DNA of 45,536 nt, taken from Planctomycetota bacterium (GTDB lineage Bacteria; Planctomycetota; Brocadiia; Brocadiales; Brocadiaceae). Made by a program: the position numbers and the translations under genes. Positions 22,173-32,536 of the stretch are shown piece by piece. The stretch spans positions 1 through 45,536 of the forward strand of contig VGXV01000029.1 of NCBI GenBank assembly GCA_016873165.1. The letters run 5' to 3'. Within the stretch, counting starts at the first letter, position 1. Every line of letters starts with the position of its first letter. The notes below the pieces were generated by a model. It was not told the DNA's origin. It saw only the letters and a list, made by a program, of their open reading frames with translations, and did not search any database.

Positions 22173-25100
22173 TCAATCAACCAATCTTTGATAATAATCT
22201 TTATTTAACTCCTTATATTTCTCAGGCAAACCCTCTTTTAACGCATCGAGAATTTCTTCTCTGAATTTTTTCGGCACTTTATATGCATCCTCGGAGGGTA
22301 TTTCCACCTTTTCCGAAGTAGAGGCAACCTGCCCTTCTTCCATTCTGCCGCGGAACGGCATCGGCATTCCTTCTCCCATCATCCCCTGCTTTACGTGCTC
22401 TTTTGCCTTCTGCACCCCTTTTTTCGCCTCGGCAAGGCGGTACAGCGATTCTCTTTCCTCAATAACCGCGCCGGGAATGTCCTGCCCTTCCAGTCGTTGC
22501 TTCGCGCCGGACATGGAATTTGAAGCCATTTCAAGCTGTCTGTTTGCATCCTCATCCATAAATGGCGTTTGTTTCGAAAGCTGCTCTAACATCTCCATGA
22601 GTTCATCCGTCTCATTTTTATACTCTCCCTGTTTCTCCGCGTATTGTTGCAATGCTTCCTGATCTTCCTGATTCATACTGGCCATCCGGTGCTGATCGAG
22701 AAACTTTGTCATAGACTCAAGGTCCCTGACTATCTCCTGGCTTTGTTGCGCCGCATCTTCAATTTTTTGCGCTGTTTCACTCTCTTCCTGCGGCAGCGCT
22801 TCCTCTCCCTCACTCTTTTTCAGTTCGAGAGACTCCTGCATACGATTGTTCCAGTGATTCGTGTTCTGCGCAACTTCCCGTGCCAATTCCAACGACTCGT
22901 TGATATCTTTCCCCTTCATCATTTCCTTAAGATGAGAAAGCGCCTCCTCTGTCTGGGGCAATTCCTTATCGACATAAAGAAAATCTCTCTGCAGGGGATC
23001 TCTGTTGATCTCACGGTTCAACTCCGCGTTTTTTCTTGTCAGTTCCGATAATTTACCTGCTTCCTCTTTCGACATATCCGGTTCTTCTGTACTTTCGAAC
23101 AAATCGCTGAATCGGTTCATCGGCAACATTCCCCGCTGTTCGGAAAATTGCTGCAATTGTTGTTTGGTCTGAAGATATTCCTGCAGCAATTCATTTTTTG
23201 CCAGATATTCTTTTGCCCCTTCAATATCCCGTTTCACGGCTTCGATTCTTTCTTCCTGTTTTTCGAAAAAGGACTTTAATGTTTCATTCATGGATTCCGA
23301 GACACGCTCCTGAATATCTTTCTTTAACTCTTCCGTTTTCTCCGCCAGCGCTCTTTGCTTATTTTCCAGTTCCGACATAGAATCCAGCGCTTTGTCCATC
23401 TTTTTCAAGGAGTCGGAATAAAACGAATCCGTCAGCCCCTGCGAAGCGGAATTCATCTGATCCATCATCTTCTGCAGAGACGAAAGCATCCTTTGCGCCG
23501 CCTGCAGCGCGCCTTCAAAATCTCCGTTTTTAAGGGCATTTTTCATTTCATTTACATCGTTCATAACGTTATCCTGCTCAATCCCCTTCATTGCGTCCGC
23601 GTTCAGGAATTCATCCATGTGCTCACTCTGCGCCATTTGCATGAGTTTCATCATCATCTGCTGAATCATATTTTCAATATTTTTCAATTCGGCAAGCGCC
23701 TTTTCATTCAGTTTCATATTCCCTGTTTCACGCAGTTGATTAAGTAATTGTTCAATCGTATTCTGGGACTGAATCAGGTCTTTCCCCGTATCAATAACTT
23801 CATCCAGCTTCTGCTTTTGTATCATTTCATTCAGGAACATAATCATATCTTCCACTTCCGCCACTTCCGCGTCCTGTAATAATTGAAGCTCTGTCAGCAT
23901 TGTTACGGGCACATTATCATCAGCCACGGAAAGCATTGATTTTTGTATGGCCTCTTGTTTCTGCTCCGTCACATCACGAAACTTCTTCCTCAGATTTTCC
24001 AGGGAATAATAAACACTGTAATTTGCTATGGTATCTTCCTGCATGCCCACCAGAATATCCGTAAAGAGGCGATTAATAATCCCTACACGTTCTTTGATAA
24101 TATCCTGCCGCATAAGCAGATACTCTTTTGAGGCGCACCTTTCATCATCAACCCTGTTCACAAGGTCATCGGACAATAATCTCAGCGCTTCTTTCACCAG
24201 CGATTCCTGCAATTGTATCAACTCCTGATGCTTCTTCCGGGAACTGTAAATCTCCAGATAATACGTTGCAGATGTGCCGGTTTTCGGCCCCGATATCGTA
24301 TCGTTGTCCTTTACTTCCAGATAGTATGCAACCTTATCGTCCGGCTGCAGATTCAATTCGCTTAACGACCATTTATACGTCCCGTTATACAATACCTGTC
24401 TTTTACTGAAACGGGACAAAGCCCTTGCGTTCTTTTCATTTCGCACTTCATAGACAAGAGAAATCTCCGTCAATCCATAATCATCCTTCGCGTTATATTG
24501 AAGATGTACCACGTCTTTTTCGTTCACCACCAAATCCTTTGCCGGTGTGTCAATGGACACATGGGGAGTCTGATCAGGAAGGACTTCAACCATATATAAT
24601 GCCTGATCCCTCGTGACATTTCCCCTCGAATCCGTTATCTCAAAACAATAGGAACCATTCTCCAGCAATTGCAACACGCCGTTCATGGTCTTGTTGTTCT
24701 CGACTGTGAGCGGAATTATTGTGGACTCGTTAAATATAATCTTTGCCGATACCAGGGGACGATCGGTCGTTGCGCTGATTTGCGCTTCACTCCCCTTCAG
24801 GGCCTTTATATTGCCGCTCGTGTTGTAAAACGTCTTCGGCTCCATGCCGGAATAGAGAGGATACCGGTAACTCACGGTAATATCGCCAATAACGGGCACT
24901 GTGGGTGTTGCAAATTGCCCTCTGATAATCTCACCCCTGTCGCTGAGATAACTGAAGAAAAGCGGAATATTTTTGTCGAGAGAAGCACGGTGAAACGCAT
25001 ATACTGCCCCAAAAAGAAGAACGCTAAAAATAAGGAGTGTATTGCCGAAGAGAAGAAATTTTCTGCCAACCACCACCTGCATGTTCAATTGCTTCAATTT

Positions 25101-25589
25101 CCGTGAAGTATCGTCAACCAGCATGGAGACCATCTGGTCGGAATAGTGCAACTTCTCCGCATCGCCCCGCGACTTTGTTAACTGCAGGGAACTGATAAGC
25201 GCGTTATTCAGCGAGGGGTATTTTTGCTCTATCAAAAGGGCGATCTTTTCTCTGTTCAGTACGGAAACCAGTGGCCGCACAATTAGCTTAAAAAAAACGA
25301 CGCTCAAAACAGCAAGGCAAAGGAGATAAAATGCCCCAAGTCCTCCGGATAATCGTAAGAGTGTGGTGACACTAAAAGCGCCCGTCATCACCAGCGCAAC
25401 CATCAGTGAAAGCACCACGGCAACACCGCCGAACAATCTATTCACAATGACATGTTTGCACACCAGTCGTAATGACCTGTTGATTATGCTTTCACCGCTT
25501 TGGGACTTCGCGTCCCTGAAGTTTAACAGCGTAACAATATCAATCAGGTTAGTGATCAGCTTACTTGTTTTCGACAATAAATTTTTCAT
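22173..25589 (-). CDS. Large DUF4175-type membrane protein with long coiled-coil region
   Basis: 1138 residues. Three N-terminal TM helices (two near 48-112, one about 175-200) precede a periplasmic beta-rich part (about 220-430; PVIGDITVSYRYPLYSG, DYGLTEISLVYEV, PDDKVAYYLEVKDND), the pattern of DUF4175/TIGR02302 proteins. The rest (about 470-1070) is dominated by Glu/Gln/Met-rich amphipathic helices that predict long coiled coils, for example KMDKALDSMSELENKQRALAEK. DUF4175 proteins usually sit beside MoxR/BatA-type genes and are implicated in envelope integrity; here the partner is a TPR-gluzincin protease. There is no lipobox and no C-terminal anchor. It is the first gene of its operon and its exact function is unknown. 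Confidence 0.75.
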   Translation of the reverse strand: MKNLLSKTSKLITNLIDIVTLLNFRDAKSQSGESIINRSLRLVCKHVIVNRLFGGVAVVLSLMVALVMTGAFSVTTLLRLSGGLGAFYLLCLAVLSVVFFKLIVRPLVSVLNREKIALLIEQKYPSLNNALISSLQLTKSRGDAEKLHYSDQMVSMLVDDTSRKLKQLNMQVVVGRKFLLFGNTLLIFSVLLFGAVYAFHRASLDKNIPLFFSYLSDRGEIIRGQFATPTVPVIGDITVSYRYPLYSGMEPKTFYNTSGNIKALKGSEAQISATTDRPLVSAKIIFNESTIIPLTVENNKTMNGVLQLLENGSYCFEITDSRGNVTRDQALYMVEVLPDQTPHVSIDTPAKDLVVNEKDVVHLQYNAKDDYGLTEISLVYEVRNEKNARALSRFSKRQVLYNGTYKWSLSELNLQPDDKVAYYLEVKDNDTISGPKTGTSATYYLEIYSSRKKHQELIQLQESLVKEALRLLSDDLVNRVDDERCASKEYLLMRQDIIKERVGIINRLFTDILVGMQEDTIANYSVYYSLENLRKKFRDVTEQKQEAIQKSMLSVADDNVPVTMLTELQLLQDAEVAEVEDMIMFLNEMIQKQKLDEVIDTGKDLIQSQNTIEQLLNQLRETGNMKLNEKALAELKNIENMIQQMMMKLMQMAQSEHMDEFLNADAMKGIEQDNVMNDVNEMKNALKNGDFEGALQAAQRMLSSLQKMMDQMNSASQGLTDSFYSDSLKKMDKALDSMSELENKQRALAEKTEELKKDIQERVSESMNETLKSFFEKQEERIEAVKRDIEGAKEYLAKNELLQEYLQTKQQLQQFSEQRGMLPMNRFSDLFESTEEPDMSKEEAGKLSELTRKNAELNREINRDPLQRDFLYVDKELPQTEEALSHLKEMMKGKDINESLELAREVAQNTNHWNNRMQESLELKKSEGEEALPQEESETAQKIEDAAQQSQEIVRDLESMTKFLDQHRMASMNQEDQEALQQYAEKQGEYKNETDELMEMLEQLSKQTPFMDEDANRQLEMASNSMSGAKQRLEGQDIPGAVIEERESLYRLAEAKKGVQKAKEHVKQGMMGEGMPMPFRGRMEEGQVASTSEKVEIPSEDAYKVPKKFREEILDALKEGLPEKYKELNKDYYQRLVD

Positions 25590-25762
25590 AGGAAATGAAG
25601 AAAATAACCCCTTTGTTTTTTAGTTGTTAACTATCATAAAGGGTATGTCTGGAGCGTTCAATTGTCAAACAAAAACTTATGGTTGAAAAATTGATATTCG
25701 CGGCTAAAATGTCACTTGCAGCTCTTATAAAAACCCTTTCAAATAATTGTCAATAACGGCCT

Positions 25763-26251
25763 ATGAAAATACTCGGAATTGATCCCGGAACGCTGGTTGT
25801 CGGTTACGGCATAATAGAAAAATCAGGTTCGGAAGTAAAGGTAATCGATTTTGGCGCCATAAAAACCGAAAAAAACCAGAGTTTCCCGGAACGCCTCAAA
25901 ACAATCCATACCAGGGTAACAGACCTGATATCGATACACAAACCTGACCAAATGGCGGTAGAAGAGGTTTTTTTCAGCAAAAACTTTAAATCCGCCATTA
26001 AAATAGGAGAAGGCAGGGGCATCATTTTTCTGTGCGCAGCGACCTCAAACATCCCCATCACCGAATATGCCGCCAGGGTGGTAAAAAAAGCAATCGTAGG
26101 AAACGGAAACGCCCATAAAGGCCAGGTGCAGGAAATGGTAAAAGTCATCCTCCGCCTGCCCGAAATCCCACAGCCGGAAGACGCCTCCGACGCCCTTGCC
26201 ATTGCCATCTGCCATAGCCATAATCTGCAAACGGGGCATTCATACTTTTGA
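25763..26251 (+). CDS. ruvC: Holliday junction resolvase RuvC
   Basis: Dimeric endonuclease that resolves Holliday junctions with RuvAB in recombinational repair. The 162-residue length and sequence fit RuvC: MKILGIDPGTLVVGYGII with catalytic Asp7, AVEEVFFSKNFKSAIKIGEGRG with Glu67, and PEDASDALAIAICH with Asp140 and Asp143 completing the acidic tetrad. KAIVGNGNAHKGQVQEMV is the conserved DNA-binding segment. The gene stands alone and divergent from the DUF4175 operon; ruvA and ruvB are not in the window. It forms the left chromosomal flank of the accessory island. Confidence 0.96.
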   Translation: MKILGIDPGTLVVGYGIIEKSGSEVKVIDFGAIKTEKNQSFPERLKTIHTRVTDLISIHKPDQMAVEEVFFSKNFKSAIKIGEGRGIIFLCAATSNIPITEYAARVVKKAIVGNGNAHKGQVQEMVKVILRLPEIPQPEDASDALAIAICHSHNLQTGHSYF

Positions 26252-26393
26252 GAAAGAAATCAAAACGGGGAAGGCATTCTCATTCATCGGTATGCTATAC
26301 TTATATTCGTGTTACGTAGTTTCAAAGATGTCATTCTTGTTCTTGTTTTCGCCAGGCTAAACTCCAGCACGAATTCATAGAGTGGTAAAGTCA

Positions 26394-26431
26394 CAACCAA
26401 ATCCCCATTAGAAAATGGGGCGAGGGGGTTG
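26394..26431. repeat. Imperfect palindrome downstream of ruvC
   Basis: CAACC...TCCCCATT-AGAA-AATGGGGC...GGTTG folds into a hairpin, followed after six nt by a T-rich stretch (cttttttac). It could act as a weak ruvC terminator, or be a REP-like repeat; it lies 140 nt beyond the ruvC stop. Confidence 0.5.
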
Positions 26432-26532
26432 CAAAAACCTTTTTTACAATTTATCAAATGTTTCGAGGTTTATTTATATTGTTGTAACTATGCTGCATTA
26501 TGAAATAACAAAGAAATAAAGAGAGAGAGAGG

Positions 26533-26629: not shown

Positions 26630-26840
26630 GGAGAAAATGCGGAAAGACGATTCCTTAAGGTTCCTCTATAACCAGTGCAATAAAACGCTCTCCGGCGAAT
26701 AGTTACTATGCAGGTAAAATGATTTACCTGAATTGTAATCAATCCCCAATATATCCTTGTAATCAAAACTGTTAAATGTATAATCTTTTTAAAGGGAAAA
26801 ACTCTTTATTGTCAATAGATTAGGTTTGACCCCATGTTTC
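26630..26840. repeat. Dispersed repeat A, copy 2
   Basis: From GGAGAAAATGCGGAAAGACG to the terminus GGTTTGACCCCATGTTTC it is nearly identical to 28817-29028: a one-nt length difference and a handful of substitutions in about 210 bp. Only the right-hand half of the 545-bp element at 28477 is present. It truncates the first cassette gene on its left side and supplies an ATG to the remnant frame. Confidence 0.85.
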
Positions 26841-26965
26841 ATATTGACTGCGCAAATGGTCATGAATGGCAAGAATGTCCAAATAGAAGAACTGATAAGC
26901 GGCGGCCAAAGGGGTGTCCGGTGTGCAGAAGAAAAGGCAGCCAAACAAAAACTGAGGGGTGCTAA
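26834..26965 (+). pseudogene. Remnant of a zinc-ribbon cassette gene
   Basis: A 43-codon frame reads FHIDCANGHEWQECPNRR...RPKGCPVCRRKGS, the 'C..GH.W......R....GCP.C' pattern of DUF4379-like zinc-ribbon/nuclease-associated repeats. Its ATG belongs to dispersed repeat A, so the original 5' part is missing. The stop TAA lies inside the 5' end of attC1 (GCTAAC), which is normal for integron cassette genes. It is the tail of the first cassette in the array, cut off by the repeat. Confidence 0.55.
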
Positions 26966-27020
26966 CAAGCGCATCAACACCGACTCCGCTTCGCTACGCG
27001 GGTTATGCTGGTCGTTAGAT
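26961..27020 (+). other. attC recombination site 1
   Basis: 60 bp starting GCTAACAAGCGCATCAACAC and ending GCTGGTCGTTAGAT. The R'' box (GCTAAC) and R' box (GTTAGAT) are inverted, and the inner arms GCATCAAC/GTTATGC pair with unpaired extra bases, as in class 1 integron cassettes such as aadA. An imperfect stem with an extrahelical base is what integron integrases recognise. Confidence 0.88.
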
Positions 27021-27060: not shown

Positions 27061-28296
27061 ATGATCTCAGAAAATCATATCACAGTTATTGAGAAAGGGA
27101 CTGATGCTTGGAATTCATGGAGAGATAAAAATCCCCACATCAAGCCACTCCTTAGAGGCGAACGCCTCGGAGATTTACACGCTTCCGGAGTTAACTTTAG
27201 AGACACTGATTTGTCTAATGCATCCATGGAAGGAGCTAATCTAATTGAGGCTGATTTAAGCAATTCAAATCTGTTTCATGCTGACCTGGGCGGAGCCAAT
27301 CTTCTAAGGGCAAAATTGATTAATGCAAATTTGCAGAAAACTTACTTTTGTAATCGCTACAAGAGTACGATATACGGCTTGGAAACTCACGAAAATGTAA
27401 TCTCTTATGAGCATTATCGCTCCGCAAGTTTACGAGAAGCAAACCTTAGCAATGCCGACTTAAGTGAAGCTGATCTTTGTCATGTAGATTTAACAGATGC
27501 GAACCTAAGTGGTGCGACACTATTTCGAACTAATCTCAGCGGTGCAAATCTGACAAAGACAAACCTTTCAGGTGCGAAACTCATTGAGGCTGATATTAGT
27601 AATGCCATATTATATTCCGTAAATCTTCAAGATACGACTCTTACAAATTGCAGAATTCACGGTATTTCAGCGTGGAAACTAGATATTACTAAAACGGTTC
27701 AAACAAGTCTCATCATCACAGACAAAGATGAACCAGAAATATCAGTGGATAATCTGGAAGTAGCACAGTTTATTTATCTCCTTCTTCATAATAAGAAAAT
27801 ACGTGATGTAATCGATACTGTTGCTAATAAAGCCGTTCTTATCCTAGGCCGCTTCACTCCCCAAAGAAAATTGATTTTAGACGCCATTAAAGAATTCCTG
27901 CGCAATCATAACTACGTTCCTATATTATTTGACTTTGAAAGATCCCCCAGAAGAGACGCACTTGAAACCATAACAACACTTGCTGGTTTATCCAAATTTG
28001 TTATTGCTGATTTTTCAGAACCTATGTCAACCCCATTAGAGGCCCATGCGATTATTCCTAACCTTATGATCCCATTTGTGCCAATTATTAAGGAAGGTGA
28101 AAAAATATTCTCAATGTTTACCGATTTGAAGATGAAATATGATTGGGTATTAGAACCTATAAGTTATAACAGTAAAGAAGACCTTTTAGAATACTTCGAA
28201 AAAGGTATTTTAGAAAGAGCGGAAAACAAATTCTGTAAAATTCGAGAGAAAAGATTATCAGCTCAAAGAGATCCGATAAGAATGAGAGAAATCTAA
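27061..28296 (+). CDS. Cassette gene: pentapeptide-repeat protein with C-terminal Rossmann/TIR-like domain
   Basis: 411 residues. After WNSWRDKNPHIKPLLRGERL, residues about 38-200 are pentapeptide repeats of the A(D/N)LXX type (GANLIEADLSNSNLFHADLGG, ASLREANLSNADLSEADL), which form a right-handed quadrilateral beta-helix. Residues about 256-365 (KAVLILGRFTPQRKLILDAIKEFLRNHNYVPILFDF, SKFVIADFSEPMSTPLEAHAIIP) look like a Rossmann-type module similar to the TIR/nucleotide-binding domains that accompany pentapeptide repeats in many bacteria. It is cytoplasmic. It starts 41 nt after attC1, with no clear Shine-Dalgarno, as expected for the first gene of a cassette. A defence or NAD-related role is possible but unproved. 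Confidence 0.7.
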   Translation: MISENHITVIEKGTDAWNSWRDKNPHIKPLLRGERLGDLHASGVNFRDTDLSNASMEGANLIEADLSNSNLFHADLGGANLLRAKLINANLQKTYFCNRYKSTIYGLETHENVISYEHYRSASLREANLSNADLSEADLCHVDLTDANLSGATLFRTNLSGANLTKTNLSGAKLIEADISNAILYSVNLQDTTLTNCRIHGISAWKLDITKTVQTSLIITDKDEPEISVDNLEVAQFIYLLLHNKKIRDVIDTVANKAVLILGRFTPQRKLILDAIKEFLRNHNYVPILFDFERSPRRDALETITTLAGLSKFVIADFSEPMSTPLEAHAIIPNLMIPFVPIIKEGEKIFSMFTDLKMKYDWVLEPISYNSKEDLLEYFEKGILERAENKFCKIREKRLSAQRDPIRMREI

Positions 28297-28476: not shown

Positions 28477-29021
28477 GGGGTCAAACCTGATCTATTGACA
28501 TTGACCTGATTTGTTAACTTATCGACATGGCAAGACCGTTACGAATAGAATATCATGGCGCATGGTATCACTTCACCTCACGCGGTAACGAAAGAAACAG
28601 CATATTCAAAGATGACACCGATCGCGAAAAGTTTCTCGTTATATTAAAAGATAGTCTGGAAAAATACCTGGTGCAATTACATGGCTATGTTCTCATGGAA
28701 AACCATTTTCATCTTATCCTTCACACACCCGCAGGAAACCTTAATCGTTTTGAAGGTAAACAGGGACAGCGACTATTTATTTTCATAAAAATGGTAGCTG
28801 TCCCTATTATATAACGGGAGAAAATGCGGAAAGACGATTCCTTAAGGTTCCTCTATAACCAGTGCAATAAAACGCTCTCCGGCGAATAGTCATCTATGCA
28901 GGTAAAATGATTTACCTGAGTTGTAATCAATCCCCAATATATCCTTGTAATCAAAACTGTTAAATGTATAATCTTTTTAAAGGGAAAAACTCTTTATTGT
29001 CAATAGATTAGGTTTGACCCC
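28477..29021. mobile_element. 545-bp transposon remnant with 24-bp terminal inverted repeats
   Basis: The left end GGGGTCAAACCTGATCTATT (to TGACA at 28500) is repeated inverted at 28998-29021 (ending GGTTTGACCCC) with one mismatch in 24. Inside are the start of an HUH transposase gene (28527), the GGGACAGC hairpin (28763-28804) and the 3' half shared with dispersed repeat A. The element has inserted into, or displaced, the end of a cassette, because a broken cassette tail and attC2 follow. Copies of its right half occur at 551-713 and 26630-26840. HUH/Y1 elements normally lack inverted ends, so the ends may belong to a passive, trans-mobilised unit. Confidence 0.7.
28527..28814 (+). pseudogene. 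Truncated RAYT-type (Y1/HUH) transposase, N-terminal part
   Basis: The frame encodes MARPLRIEYHGAWYHFTSRGNERNSIF...HGYVLMENHFHLILHTPAGNL. This is the N-terminus of a long REP-associated tyrosine transposase, with the metal-binding HUH motif HFHLI intact. After NLNRF (about 28754) it runs into the repeat hairpin GGTAAACAGGGACAGC, and the rest of the catalytic domain, including the expected tyrosine, is missing. It is not functional. A decayed C-terminal part of a related gene is at 131-412. Confidence 0.8.
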
Positions 29022-29028
29022 ATGTTTC
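28817..29028. repeat. Dispersed repeat A, copy 3
   Basis: The second near-identical copy of the roughly 210-bp unit also found at 26630-26840, here as the right half of the 545-bp element. The two copies flank the pentapeptide cassette as direct repeats 2.2 kb apart, so homologous recombination between them would delete that cassette. Confidence 0.85.
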
Positions 29029-29152: not shown

Positions 29153-29153
29153 T

Positions 29154-29285
29154 GCTAACAAGTCATTGCAGTGAACGAGTACCACAGGACACTTTTCAAA
29201 TGAGCGATGACTTTAGATTTGCAAATCGTCTATTTTGCTTTTTAACGTCTTACGGTGGTACTCGTCACTGAATTTTACGTTAGGC
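29154..29285 (+). other. attC recombination site 2
   Basis: 132 bp from GCTAACAAGTCATTGCAGTG to ...TTTTACGTTAGGC. The arms GCAGTGAACGAGTACCAC and GTGGTACTCGTCACTG are complementary with one extra unpaired base, an attC hallmark. R'' GCTAAC and R' GTTAGGC match the consensus. The large variable terminal loop is rich in A and T. Confidence 0.9.
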
Positions 29286-29295
29286 ATAAAATAAA

Positions 29296-30051
29296 ATGAA
29301 GAAGATAAGACCAAATACCTTAACCAATGCGCCTCTCCAGTGTGCTCCACAGAACGAAATTGGCGTTGTCTATCTTTTTGCCCATATTGCACGAAAAAAA
29401 CAATTTCGTATTGAAGAAATTCGACCGCAGTTTCCAGATTGCATAGCTTATCGCAGGAGTGGCGATCAGGAAAAGCTTGTCAGAATAGAATTTGAATTCC
29501 GATCAAGCAGTTTTAAAGCTCATGGCCACGATCCCACGAAATGTGACTGCATTGTGTGTTGGCATCATGACTGGCCTGAATGCCCGCTGGAAGTAATAGA
29601 ACTTAAAAAGGACTTTCATTCTGTCCCAAAGGTTTGGATTCAACCGGCGAGAAAAGATCAATGGCATTGGCTTGAAAATTCAAAGCGTGTCTCATGGGGT
29701 GTTTCTAAACGTGCCACTCTTGGCGATCTCCTCTTGATATATCGGTGTCGGCCAGAAAAGGCGATAAAGGAAATTTACACAGTTGTTGGAGAAAAAATCA
29801 GAGGAAAAGCAGATTGGCGTGAAGGTAACTGTTACGCAGCCACAATAGAGAGAATTTGCACTTTAGACGCTCCCCTCTTTTTTGAAGACTTCAAATCAAA
29901 TCGCATTCTCAAGACTGCGGGTTTTGTGCGCCGCAATTTTCAAGGAAATCTTCTTGTTTCAGAATATTGGCCTTACATCTATGAAATGATTGTTGAAAGA
30001 AATCCAAAAACATTAAAAATTCTGAATAATTACGAGCCATCAAAAATGTAA
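29296..30051 (+). CDS. Cassette gene: PD-(D/E)XK-like nuclease fused to an EVE domain
   Basis: 251 residues starting 10 nt after attC2. The N-terminal part (about 20-105) has a restriction-endonuclease-like core: FPDCIAYRR (Asp48) then LVRIEFEFRSSSF (Glu65, Glu67) and HGHDPTKCDCIVCWHHDW with a terminal VIELK. This is the PD...ExE pattern with Glu where Lys is usual. The C-terminal part (about 112-240) reads as an EVE/PUA-like modified-base-binding domain: VWIQPARKDQWHWLENSKRVSWGVSKRATLGDLLLIYRC, WREGNCYAATIERI, VRRNFQGNLLVSEYWPYIYEMI. EVE-nuclease fusions act as modification-dependent (type IV-like) restriction factors, so anti-phage defence is likely. The protein is cytoplasmic. No Shine-Dalgarno is visible. 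Confidence 0.7.
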   Translation: MKKIRPNTLTNAPLQCAPQNEIGVVYLFAHIARKKQFRIEEIRPQFPDCIAYRRSGDQEKLVRIEFEFRSSSFKAHGHDPTKCDCIVCWHHDWPECPLEVIELKKDFHSVPKVWIQPARKDQWHWLENSKRVSWGVSKRATLGDLLLIYRCRPEKAIKEIYTVVGEKIRGKADWREGNCYAATIERICTLDAPLFFEDFKSNRILKTAGFVRRNFQGNLLVSEYWPYIYEMIVERNPKTLKILNNYEPSKM

Positions 30052-30113
30052 AAAACCTTGACAAATAAGAGGCTATAGATAAGAATTAGAAGCAGTTTGA
30101 AAAGGAGGTTTTT

Positions 30114-30305
30114 GTGGATAACGTTTTATTAAAAGACGGCGAAAAATACGGCGGCCAGTATGTAGCAACAAGGTCATTTAAGGACAGGAGGGTTGTCAGT
30201 CATGGCAGCGATCCGAGCAAGGTTTTTAATGATGCGAGGGAAAAGGGTGTAAAAGCACCGGTAGTCTTTTATGTCCCCAAAAAGGGTATGGTGCAAATAT
30301 ACTGA
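30114..30305 (+). CDS. Cassette gene: DUF5678-type small protein
   Basis: 63 residues, starting at a GTG with a strong AAAGGAGG Shine-Dalgarno 6 nt upstream. The sequence YGGQYVATRSFKDRRVVSHGSDPSKVFNDAREKGVKAPVVFYVPKKG fits DUF5678, a small alpha/beta family of unknown function. Its stop TGA overlaps by one base the ATG of the aspartic-protease-like gene downstream (TGATG), so translation is coupled. DUF5678 genes commonly precede a retropepsin-like gene. Because no attC lies between this pair and the EVE gene, all three belong to one cassette. A TTGACA at 30058 could be part of an internal promoter, but its -10 is weak. Confidence 0.7.
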   Translation: MDNVLLKDGEKYGGQYVATRSFKDRRVVSHGSDPSKVFNDAREKGVKAPVVFYVPKKGMVQIY

Positions 30306-30766
30306 TGCCGCTCAAGGACTGTCCATTTCTTAAACTCAGCAAAGAAGATATTCCACGGCCTCTCCTTCCCATAAACATAATCAATCCACATACCGGGCTT
30401 TCATACGCCACTTTTGGCATCATAGACACTGGCGCAGATGAATGTGCAATCCCTGCCAGTATCGCCTCAATATTGGGACACAACCTGCAATCAGGTTCTA
30501 CAAAGATAATAGGCACAGGAAATGGAGAAACTATTGCATTTGTCCATACAACAAAATTTGAAATATACGATCCTTTGTCCTTTAAACTCACATATACAAT
30601 TCAGGATACCCCAATTGACTTTATGCCTAATCTACATGTCGTTCTTCTCGGTGTAAACAGCTTTCTCAGCAAGTTTGTCTTGAACATAGATTATCCAAGT
30701 AAAGTTTTTTCAATCAGTTCGCCCCAAAAAGCAATGAAAAAGAAGTCAAGAGGGATAAAGTTATAA
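30305..30766 (+). CDS. Cassette gene: retropepsin-like aspartic protease
   Basis: 153 residues with the single-lobe aspartyl protease signature FGIIDTGADECAIPASIASILG (Asp41-Thr-Gly), followed by the family's GTGNGETIAFVHTTKFEI and the second conserved hydrophobic-Gly segment NLHVVLLGVNSFLSKFVLNIDY. As in viral retropepsins it would need to dimerise to form an active site. It has no signal peptide, so it is cytoplasmic. The start overlaps the DUF5678 gene. In other genomes this pair is often found in small mobile, toxin-antitoxin-like loci; the substrate is unknown. The attC3 site begins 6 nt after the stop. Confidence 0.75.
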   Translation: MPLKDCPFLKLSKEDIPRPLLPINIINPHTGLSYATFGIIDTGADECAIPASIASILGHNLQSGSTKIIGTGNGETIAFVHTTKFEIYDPLSFKLTYTIQDTPIDFMPNLHVVLLGVNSFLSKFVLNIDYPSKVFSISSPQKAMKKKSRGIKL

Positions 30767-30772
30767 AGGTAT

Positions 30773-30870
30773 GCCTAACAAGCCGCTCCACATTGACGCT
30801 TTTCTGTCATGCGGCTTGCAAAGGCCTGCAAGCCGCACGCCAGAAGCGCAAGTGAGCTTGGTCGTTAACT
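30773..30870 (+). other. attC recombination site 3
   Basis: 98 bp from GCCTAACAAGCCGCTCCACA to ...GAGCTTGGTCGTTAACT. R'' GCCTAAC and R' GTTAACT are canonical. The terminal stem ATGCGGCTTGC/GCAAGCCGCAC is long and strong, and the outer arms pair with mismatches and bulges. The R' side is followed by CTCAATAAAT, also seen after attC4. Confidence 0.9.
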
Positions 30871-30879
30871 CAATAAATC

Positions 30880-31803
30880 ATGAAGCTACTTGATCCTAAT
30901 ATTGCGGCACCAGACATTCGGTACAATAATATTCAAAAGCCGATAGGGTGTAATAACCCACCTGATTTGGCAATAAGGCATGTAAAAGAACTATATTCTT
31001 TAACTTCACACATATTGGACTCAGGGTTTAGAGAAAAAATAAAGCTTAACTTTGCCGCGTGTTATTCAGAGATGTATTTTGCCGCCTCTTTAATGGAGCG
31101 TTCTAAAATTGATGTTACACACCCGTCAGATGAAGGCGCAGATTTTTACTTAAAAAATCTTGATTGTTGGGCCGAAGTTGTAACTGCAACGGATGGTAAG
31201 GAGGGAAATCCAAACACAATTCCTCAGCCAAAATTTAACGAAGTACAAAGCTACCCAGAAGAACAGCTTGTATTACGTCTCAGTAGCGTTTTTTGTGATA
31301 AAGCAAAAAAATTAAAGGAAGAAGACATTAAAAAAGGCCGAATCGATGAAAATCAGCCTATTATTATTTGTATTTCAGGTGGTTGGTTGACTGAAAGACT
31401 CCCTATGCACCCTGAAGGTGGTTATCCCGTCATCGCTAAAACCCTATTGCCTATAGGTGACTTCGTGCTGTGGATAAATACAAAAACGAATACGATTACA
31501 TCACATGAATATAAATACCGAGAGGGCATGAGTAAAAAAACTAACGCTGGTCAAAAAATGATATCAACTGATTTTTTTCTTAACGCAGAATTTAATCATA
31601 TAAATGCAGTTGTATATTCTTGGGCTAATGCAGCAAACCCTATTGAAAGAAGCAAATGGGGCTGTGATTTTTACACTGTGCATAATCCGTTTGCTAAAAA
31701 CAAGCTACCATTAGGTTTCATAAGGTGCGGGATTGAATATCCTGTTACAGCGAATGAGAAATCATTCACTATGGATCCACCAATTGACCATGAACGGAGT
31801 TAA
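30880..31803 (+). CDS. Cassette gene: protein with PD-(D/E)XK-like segment
   Basis: 307 residues starting 10 nt after attC3 and ending at the TAA inside the R'' box of attC4, a textbook one-gene cassette. I do not recognise the full-length family. Residues 60-104 have the order expected of a PD-(D/E)XK nuclease core: a helix with Glu64 (ACYSEMYFAASLMERSKI), then GADFYLKNLDCWAEVVTA with Asp88 and Glu99. The lysine position is occupied by Val/Thr, so catalysis is uncertain. The C-terminal half (IIICISGGWLTERL, INAVVYSWANAANP, GCDFYTVHNPFAKNKLPLGF) looks alpha/beta. There is no signal peptide. It may be a restriction-type or degenerate nuclease. Confidence 0.6.
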   Translation: MKLLDPNIAAPDIRYNNIQKPIGCNNPPDLAIRHVKELYSLTSHILDSGFREKIKLNFAACYSEMYFAASLMERSKIDVTHPSDEGADFYLKNLDCWAEVVTATDGKEGNPNTIPQPKFNEVQSYPEEQLVLRLSSVFCDKAKKLKEEDIKKGRIDENQPIIICISGGWLTERLPMHPEGGYPVIAKTLLPIGDFVLWINTKTNTITSHEYKYREGMSKKTNAGQKMISTDFFLNAEFNHINAVVYSWANAANPIERSKWGCDFYTVHNPFAKNKLPLGFIRCGIEYPVTANEKSFTMDPPIDHERS

Positions 31804-31855
31804 CAATCGCATTCAGCCGACGCAAAAAGCGCGCGGCTGATGCTTGTCGTTATGC
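31798..31855 (+). other. attC recombination site 4
   Basis: 58 bp from AGTTAACAATCGCATTCAGC to ...GCTTGTCGTTATGC. The inner arms CGCATTCAGCCG/CGGCTGATGC pair well, as in short attC sites. The R' box GTTATGC deviates from GTTRRRY at one position. It contains the stop codon of the preceding cassette gene. Confidence 0.85.
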
Positions 31856-31869
31856 CTCAATAAATATAT

Positions 31870-31898
31870 TTGACAAGTTTATATGTGAGTTGTACAAT
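31870..31898 (+). promoter_or_regulatory. Strong sigma-70-type promoter for a leaderless toxin-antitoxin transcript
   Basis: TTGACA (31870-31875), a 17-nt spacer and TACAAT (31893-31898) are near consensus. The expected start of transcription, 6-7 nt after the -10 box, coincides with the ATG at 31905, and no Shine-Dalgarno exists, so the mRNA is probably leaderless. Confidence 0.7.
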
Positions 31899-31904
31899 TA
31901 GCAC

Positions 31905-32294
31905 ATGGAAATTGTAGCCGATGCAAGCGTATTCCTCGCTGTTATCCTCAACGAAGATGACCGTGATTGGGTTATTCATAAAACCACAGGAAAAGGCATT
32001 GTTTCTCCTGAAGTTCTGCCCTATGAAATTGGCAATGCATTAATCGCCATGAAAAGAAAAGGACGTCTCCATGACCGAGAAATCCTTCGGGCATTCGATC
32101 TATCGCAGAGAATAGCGGTCAATCTGGTTTCGGTAAATATTCATGAGGCGGTAAAAATGGCTATGCGCTTCAATATATATGCCTATGATGCGTACTATCT
32201 GCAGTGCTCCATAGAAAATAAATCGCCGCTCATTAGTCTTGATAATCGCATGTGCGATATTGCAGGAAATATTGGAATAAAGGTAGTGAGGTAA
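31905..32294 (+). CDS. PIN-domain toxin (VapC-like)
   Basis: 129 residues forming one PIN ribonuclease domain: EIVADASVFLAVILNEDD (Asp6), PEVLPYEIGNALIAM (Glu41), FNIYAYDAYYLQCSI (Asp95) and PLISLDNRMC (Asp113) supply the four acidic residues that bind Mg. VapC-type toxins usually cleave tRNA or rRNA and are neutralised by an antitoxin. The predicted antitoxin gene follows 3 nt downstream, so the toxin comes first, the reverse of the usual order. It lies directly after attC4 with a promoter of its own, as toxin-antitoxin cassettes typically do to stabilise integron arrays. Confidence 0.85.
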   Translation: MEIVADASVFLAVILNEDDRDWVIHKTTGKGIVSPEVLPYEIGNALIAMKRKGRLHDREILRAFDLSQRIAVNLVSVNIHEAVKMAMRFNIYAYDAYYLQCSIENKSPLISLDNRMCDIAGNIGIKVVR

Positions 32295-32297
32295 ATT

Positions 32298-32519
32298 ATG
32301 AAAATTTATACTTATTCACAAGCTCGTGAGAAACTTGCAGATATTCTTGAAGAGTCCAAAAACGAAGAGATTGTCATTCGTCGCCGCAAGGGCGATATGT
32401 TTTCCATTGCGCCGAAATCACCCTCTCGCCGTTCCCCCTTTGACGTGCCGGGCTTGAGCAAAAAGATTTCTCGCAAAGAAATATTAGAGGCTTTACGAGA
32501 ATCCAGAGAACGGGCATAA
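32298..32519 (+). CDS. Phd/YefM-type antitoxin
   Basis: 73 residues starting MKIYTYSQAREKLADILEESKNEEIVIRRRKGDMFSIAP, the Phd/YefM DNA-binding fold (beta-hairpin plus helix). A C-terminal, probably disordered toxin-binding tail follows (LSKKISRKEILEALRESRERA). It starts 3 nt after the PIN toxin stop, so the genes are co-transcribed from the 31870 promoter. Antitoxins of this family repress their own operon, but no palindromic operator is obvious near the promoter. Pairing of a Phd-type antitoxin with a PIN toxin is common. Downstream lies dispersed repeat B instead of an attC site. Confidence 0.82.
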   Translation: MKIYTYSQAREKLADILEESKNEEIVIRRRKGDMFSIAPKSPSRRSPFDVPGLSKKISRKEILEALRESRERA

Positions 32520-32536
32520 CAAAACAATCCAGGAGG

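Follow-up and report, generated by a model that had tools for sequence, protein, structure and literature searches.

A predicted PD-(D/E)XK-like nuclease joined to an EVE domain and carried as an integron cassette in an anammox bacterium

The gene described here lies on contig C29 of the 4.05 Mb genome (G000) of an anammox bacterium whose genus is Kuenenia, within a stretch of 45,536 nucleotides that was analysed as a whole and is called the window. It encodes a protein of 251 residues with two domains, a nuclease-like one at residues 1-108 and an EVE domain at residues 111-241, and it stands in an array of integron cassettes. The features of the locus are collected in Table 1.

Table 1. Features of the integron locus and of the nuclease-EVE gene, with positions in the window
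Feature	Position	Strand	Evidence
ruvC, left border of the integron locus common to the window and K. hertensis	25763..26251	+	PF02075 E 9.9e-54; synteny
Upstream attC-like site of the same array (R'' TGCTAAC, R' GTTAGAT)	26960..27020	+	
attC1 (R'' TGCTAAC, R' GTTAGGC); R' opens the nuclease-EVE cassette	29153..29285	+	
Cassette A: nuclease-EVE gene and two more ORFs	29280..30864	+	core complement
PD-(D/E)XK-like-EVE gene, 251 aa	29296..30051	+	ORF, ATG start; purifying selection; full-length relatives at 45-81% identity
N-terminal nuclease domain (residues 1-108), alpha-beta-beta-beta-alpha-beta core	29296..29619	+	AF2 pLDDT 94.8; nearest PDB structures almost all PD-(D/E)XK
Putative catalytic PD (P47-D48), start of strand 2	29434..29439	+	invariant, 67/67
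Putative catalytic E65-F66-E67 (ExE replacing ExK), strand 3	29488..29496	+	invariant, 67/67
His/Cys loop (residues 76-93: H76, H78, C83, C88, H91)	29521..29574	+	each residue kept in 62-67/67
EVE domain (residues 111-241)	29626..30018	+	PF01878; Z 13.6 to 2gbs, 13.0 to 1zce, 11.1 to VcaM4I 6yex
DUF5678 ORF, cassette A	30114..30305	+	PF18929 E 6.4e-12
Clan-AA aspartic protease-like ORF, cassette A	30305..30766	+	PF13650 E 1e-4, slightly under the curated cut-off
attC2 (R'' GCCTAAC, R' GTTAACT)	30773..30870	+	
Cassette B, 307-aa ORF (30880-31803)	30865..31849	+	exact core complement GTTAACT/AGTTAAC
attC3 (R'' AGTTAAC, R' GTTATGC)	31798..31855	+	
Cassette C: PIN toxin (31905-32294) and antitoxin-like ORF (32298-32519)	31850..32520	+	ends GCATAAC, attC body eroded

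The start core (GTTRRRY side) and the end core (RYYYAAC side) of an integron cassette are complementary, the two forming one site in the circular form. In cassette A, the start core GTTAGGC at 29279 exactly complements the end core GCCTAAC at 30773, and such exact 7-mer complements are found in three successive cassettes (29279/30773, 30864/31798, and 31849/32514), the cores of cassette C being GTTATGC and GCATAAC. Exact links with an attC fold arose in 3 of 462 random placements in a first scan, and in a second scan a core link was met at 23 of 1179 neighbouring ORFs, some of which may be real cassettes. A scan allowing one mismatch was uninformative (66 of 462 random placements), and only exact links were counted. 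An earlier note, made from the letters of the window, had proposed that the gene is carried as an integron cassette. This holds, since the gene is bounded by attC sites that fold and there are three successive exact core complements, with the refinement that the cassette borders also enclose the DUF5678 and clan-AA protease-like ORFs.

These two additional ORFs (30114-30766) overlap end to start and possibly form a two-gene module. For the 307-aa ORF of cassette B, no Pfam or NCBIfam match was found, and there is a weak PADLOC match (E 2.6e-4) to the phage-defence protein PD-T7-5. In cassette C, the end core overlaps the stop codon of the second ORF. On the left side, the upstream attC-like site is followed by a cassette-like pentapeptide-repeat gene (27061-28296), and the C-terminal half of its product (about 170 residues, unassigned) is possibly TIR-like, as judged by eye. 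Copies of a repeated element at 26640-26840 and 28820-29022 flank this gene, more copies being present genome-wide, and its own attC seems to have been lost to the element. An IS200-like remnant lies at 28527-28814; together, the repeated element and this remnant may account for the missing intI and for the part of the array that was lost.

No integron integrase was found within the window, and in the rest of the host genome intI is present only as separate pieces, on contig C28 and at other places. In K. hertensis (G030), DNA that matches window positions 24000-26480, including ruvC, is followed directly by a complete integron integrase, and a chain of attC sites on the + strand, with successive cores complementary, accompanies it. 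Because this syntenic locus carries both the integrase and the attC chain, the array in the window occupies a chromosomal integron locus that no longer has its integrase. Linkage to an integrase is thus seen only via relatives, at the syntenic locus of G030 and in the genome G033. In the latter, the cassette next to a complete intI is an EVE relative, the first of the array, and it is followed by cassettes for a 289-aa protein, an AbiGi-like protein, and a CD-NTase (SMODS-AGS_C). This anammox integron (L155; C1:1557000-1566000) is intact, its intI and cassettes running in the same direction. The ruvC-adjacent integron of G030 (L154; C79:126000-140000) contains a gene for a TIR protein, one for a DUF726 protein that matches PDC-M09A, and an ORF weakly similar to REase_MTES_1575. 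Genes of defence type are frequent in arrays of the G030, G033, and window type, as seen from the AbiGi-like and CD-NTase genes of G033 and the TIR and weakly REase_MTES_1575-like genes of G030. Exact core links accompany the EVE relatives L006, L028, L030, and L053, and also L026 and L027, where they were read by eye from the flanks; L023 has a link with one mismatch, and the link of L034, which has weak arms, was left uncounted. Members with other architectures likewise have exact core links in L068 and L080.

Between the ORF and its nearest relative (L023), dN is 0.108 and dS is approximately 2.1, the latter near saturation. The ORF is therefore not a chance reading frame, and it is under strong purifying selection, with the nuclease half more constrained than the EVE half. 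At the DNA level, similarity to L023 and L024 spans the gene and goes no further on either side. Searches of whole genomes from the class and the phylum recovered relatives over the full length, with 61, 50, 45, and 45% identity, as well as many genomes in which only the first 105 residues are conserved. Database profiles say little about the first half of the protein: Pfam, NCBIfam, PADLOC, and PHROGs gave no confident match for it, an NCBIfam search with the 251-aa protein gave no match, and the sole PADLOC match of the protein (JAB, weak at E 0.053) was dismissed as chance.

The N-terminal domain was modelled separately, from 67 sequences, the EVE half having filled the structure hit list. 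The AlphaFold2 model (pLDDT 94.8) consists of helix 21-31, strands 37-42, 49-55, and 58-69, helix 71-76, and strand 85-90; D48 opens strand 2, E65 and E67 lie within strand 3, and E21 lies in helix 1. For D48 and E65/E67 these are the classical PD-(D/E)XK places, strand 2 carrying the Asp and strand 3 the (D/E)-x-K motif. The PDB neighbours of the model (NucS, EndoMS, BsmI, FokI, VRR_NUC, MspJI, AspBHI, SwaI, and BamHI) are nearly all PD-(D/E)XK enzymes. Individually, these matches are weak: the best VIA Z of 6.5 is below the level at which a modelled likeness could stand alone, the best Foldseek E is 0.11, and no Foldseek match with this model reached E <= 0.001. Nevertheless, because topology, catalytic positions, and a consistent list of neighbours combine, the modelled domain very probably has the PD-(D/E)XK fold. 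Several candidate parents were set aside. One relative matches PDDEXK_13 weakly (E 0.0035), and this family, with one weak match and rare in the phylum, was not adopted; a profile-profile comparison (hhalign) with NucS_C was negative; and a PDB sequence search with the domain profile returned only chance-level matches such as VPS26.

Across the 67 N-terminal domains, P18, E21, V24, P47, D48, E65, F66, E67, F73, C88, W89, W93, and L103 never vary. It should be mentioned that C88, W89, H91, and W93 belonged to one of the two search patterns of the genome-contig scan, so their conservation is partly selected, and that D48, E65, E67, H76, H78, and C83 were in neither pattern. The earlier note had placed a nuclease core on Asp48 and the ExE at 65-67, with Glu in place of the motif Lys, and had pointed to a Cys/His-rich loop. 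All of these lie at the positions it gave, the core is supported by the model and by the invariance of its residues, and Glu occupies the Lys position (E67) in every domain. The replacement of Lys by Glu is, to judge from this invariance, a family trait and not decay. A protein that reads modified bases with an inactive nuclease domain, in a regulatory role, might be suspected from the missing canonical Lys. We regard this as highly improbable: D48, E65, and E67 are invariant in relatives of several architectures, which is unexpected for a dead site, and BamHI employs an ExE motif with the same D-X16-E-X-E catalytic spacing as D48/E65/E67. BamHI itself is among the Foldseek hits of the domain (ranks 6-26, E 0.37-1.4), hits that are not significant alone, and, unlike the window protein, it is a sequence-specific type II enzyme without an EVE domain.

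The loop at residues 76-93 (HGHDPTKCDCIVCWHHDW) is conserved family-wide, with H76 and H78 each in 66, C83 in 62, C88 in 67, and H91 in 64 of the 67 domains. Because it is so strongly conserved, a metal-binding or structural role is plausible. A metal site made of Cys residues only was rejected, since C85 occurs in 10 and C96 in 45 of the 67 domains, whereas H76, H78, C83, C88, and H91 are conserved.

Directly after the nuclease core, as the earlier note had proposed, comes a PUA-like EVE module. Pfam EVE (PF01878) matches residues 113-223 with E 4.6e-5 and 23.9 bits, over the curated cut-off of 23, and also matches 17 of the 28 full-length relatives (E <= 1; best E 3.2e-8). In an AlphaFold2 model built from the 28 full-length sequences (pLDDT 89), the C-terminal half matches solved EVE structures with a Foldseek E of 3.2e-6 and with VIA Z scores of 13.6 (2gbs), 13.0 (1zce), 12.2 (2eve), and 11.1 (the EVE domain of VcaM4I, 6yex); the predicted fold of this half is accordingly that of EVE. 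In other words, structure prediction returned both an EVE and a nuclease fold, where the lack of either would have counted against the earlier note. W114, Y149, and W225 are unvarying in the alignment of the 28 relatives, and this is compatible with a putative modified-base pocket.

Other proteins use their EVE domains in RNA biology, and this counts against a restriction enzyme. The protein might instead have an RNA target, the EVE domain binding a modified RNA base and the nuclease cutting RNA as an abortive-infection or toxin-like effector. Toxin-type genes are common as cassettes, and a PIN toxin pair is among the next cassettes in the window. In the survey by Bell, Wolf and Koonin (2020, PMC7641849), EVE domains are tied to modified RNA and modified-base readers occur in toxin-antitoxin settings. 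We nonetheless hold an RNA target to be unlikely: no antitoxin gene is conserved beside the nuclease-EVE gene, in other proteins this nuclease module is joined to the DNA-binding Mrr_N or to HNH_repeat, and its PDB neighbours are mostly restriction or repair nucleases that cut DNA. Around the 28 relatives (145 ORFs), no conserved neighbour or operon partner was found, a methyltransferase included; DNA methylases make up 2 of the 145, and a scan of neighbouring ORFs in the window found no methyltransferase. Such a scarcity of methylases and lack of a conserved neighbour would be expected of an enzyme that works alone.

When genome contigs were scanned with the N-domain alignment, at least 268 relatives were confirmed, and 80 of them were kept. 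Their hosts are MAGs of the Planctomycetota, Desulfobacterota, Acidobacteriota, Chloroflexota, Verrucomicrobiota, Nitrospirota, Asgard archaea, and others, phylum assignments in which single MAG contigs may be misbinned. Several architectures were distinguished: the N-domain followed by EVE (about 145 residues); preceded by HNH_repeat (PF18780), the largest sister group; preceded by Mrr_N (PF14338); followed by a short tail with the pattern AWQ.FC..KRLEGL.F.EIAKLW; and followed by an unnamed tail of about 160 residues. No Pfam match was found for this last tail in the four members scanned (L056, L057, L062, and L098), which together with L063, L065, and L104 constitute one clade (96/97 support). 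In the N-domain tree, which has few columns and weak inner forks, the EVE group requires a single label change (84% of bootstrap trees), as do the unnamed-tail and small-tail groups each. Broken copies of the N-domain gene, with frameshifts, stops, or truncations, are seen in related genomes (L007/L022, L015, L016, L017, L021, and L029). An HNH_repeat-type member in a Lokiarchaeota MAG (L077, 2808-3736) is followed by an attC-like hairpin, which points either to a cassette in an archaeon or to wrong binning of the contig. No relatives were found by tblastn in public phage and plasmid records, or in viral contigs scanned with the single 251-aa protein; scanned with the N-domain alignment, viral contigs yielded four.

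The rows nearest to the window protein come from MAGs of more than one phylum, a distribution pointing to horizontal transfer of the gene between phyla. Such movement is also what one would see with a sequence-specific or homing-type nuclease, whose cutting aids the spread of its own element and whose EVE domain is merely a DNA anchor. The largest sister group indeed bears repeats associated with homing endonucleases (PF18780), and a single Rhodospirillaceae bin holds five N-domain loci (L050, L076, L081, L089, and L099), called HNH_repeat-type from the length of their N-terminal extensions, which suggests that this architecture is expanded or mobile there. On the other side, the EVE members are found in integron arrays or in unrelated surroundings that share no flanking target, DNA similarity to L023 and L024 does not extend beyond the gene, and movement by an integron is independent of the nuclease. 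For the window protein, homing seems to us rather improbable.

The two folds, the invariant residues, the purifying selection, the cassette borders, and the integrase-linked relatives, all of them computed, support our preferred reading: the 251-aa protein is, with fair likelihood, a single-polypeptide, modification-dependent (type IV-like) restriction nuclease that spreads as an integron cassette. The joining of the nuclease module elsewhere to Mrr_N and HNH_repeat was counted in favour of DNA restriction; the weak structural matches of the N-domain, the negative NucS comparison, and the ExE in place of ExK were counted against it. The C-terminal EVE domain would bind a modified base, the likeliest being modified cytosine, flipped from the helix in the manner of VcaM4I, and the N-terminal domain would use D48, E65, and E67 with a divalent metal to cut the DNA nearby. 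With no need of a partner methyltransferase, one gene could move between hosts as a cassette. Metal-dependent cleavage, the DNA substrate, and the identity of the base are proposed by analogy, and the protein probably serves in defence against phages or plasmids whose DNA is modified. A broader reading, to which we give an even chance, is that an unnamed PD-(D/E)xE family, with a His/Cys site that possibly holds a metal, is a cutting module joined to varied readers or partners (EVE, HNH_repeat, Mrr_N, and small helix-turn-helix-like tails), and that its EVE branch crosses phyla as one-gene, modification-dependent restriction cassettes of integrons.

The general kind, an EVE domain with a nuclease in a type IV-like enzyme, is already known. 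In MspJI and AspBHI, a modified-base reader is joined to a PD-(D/E)XK nuclease; both match the N-domain weakly in structure (Z 4.4 and 3.9), are larger, have an SRA-like reader, and showed no sequence relation to the window protein. VcaM4I is an EVE-HNH enzyme whose EVE domain flips modified cytosine into a pocket and which restricts the 5hmC-containing T4gt (PMC7897488). It resembles the window protein in joining an EVE reader, of matching fold, to a nuclease, but its EVE domain is N-terminal and its nuclease is HNH, whereas in the window protein a PD-(D/E)XK-fold nuclease precedes EVE. Fusions of EVE and PD-(D/E)XK have been described as a class of putative type IV restriction endonucleases (PMC7641849). 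That class, like the window protein, has both domains in one protein and is predicted to restrict modified DNA, and the part of the survey at hand describes it without naming the nuclease family of the window protein, in which the nuclease is N-terminal, spans about 105 residues, carries the ExE motif and the His/Cys loop, and travels in an integron cassette. What appears to be new, within Pfam, NCBIfam, PADLOC, and PHROGs, is the nuclease family with its ExE and His/Cys loop, its modular partners, and the repeated use of one gene as a cassette.

Integrons are best known for cassettes of antibiotic resistance. A self-sufficient restriction enzyme of 251 residues, needing no methyltransferase, would be well suited to cassette life, and the nuclease-EVE combination recurs in the integrons of anammox, desulfobacterial, ignavibacterial, and victivallal genomes. 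The family would offer a small system in which to test how the exchange of reader domains retargets a nuclease core, and it may also bear on the restriction of phages with modified DNA in bacteria not yet cultured.
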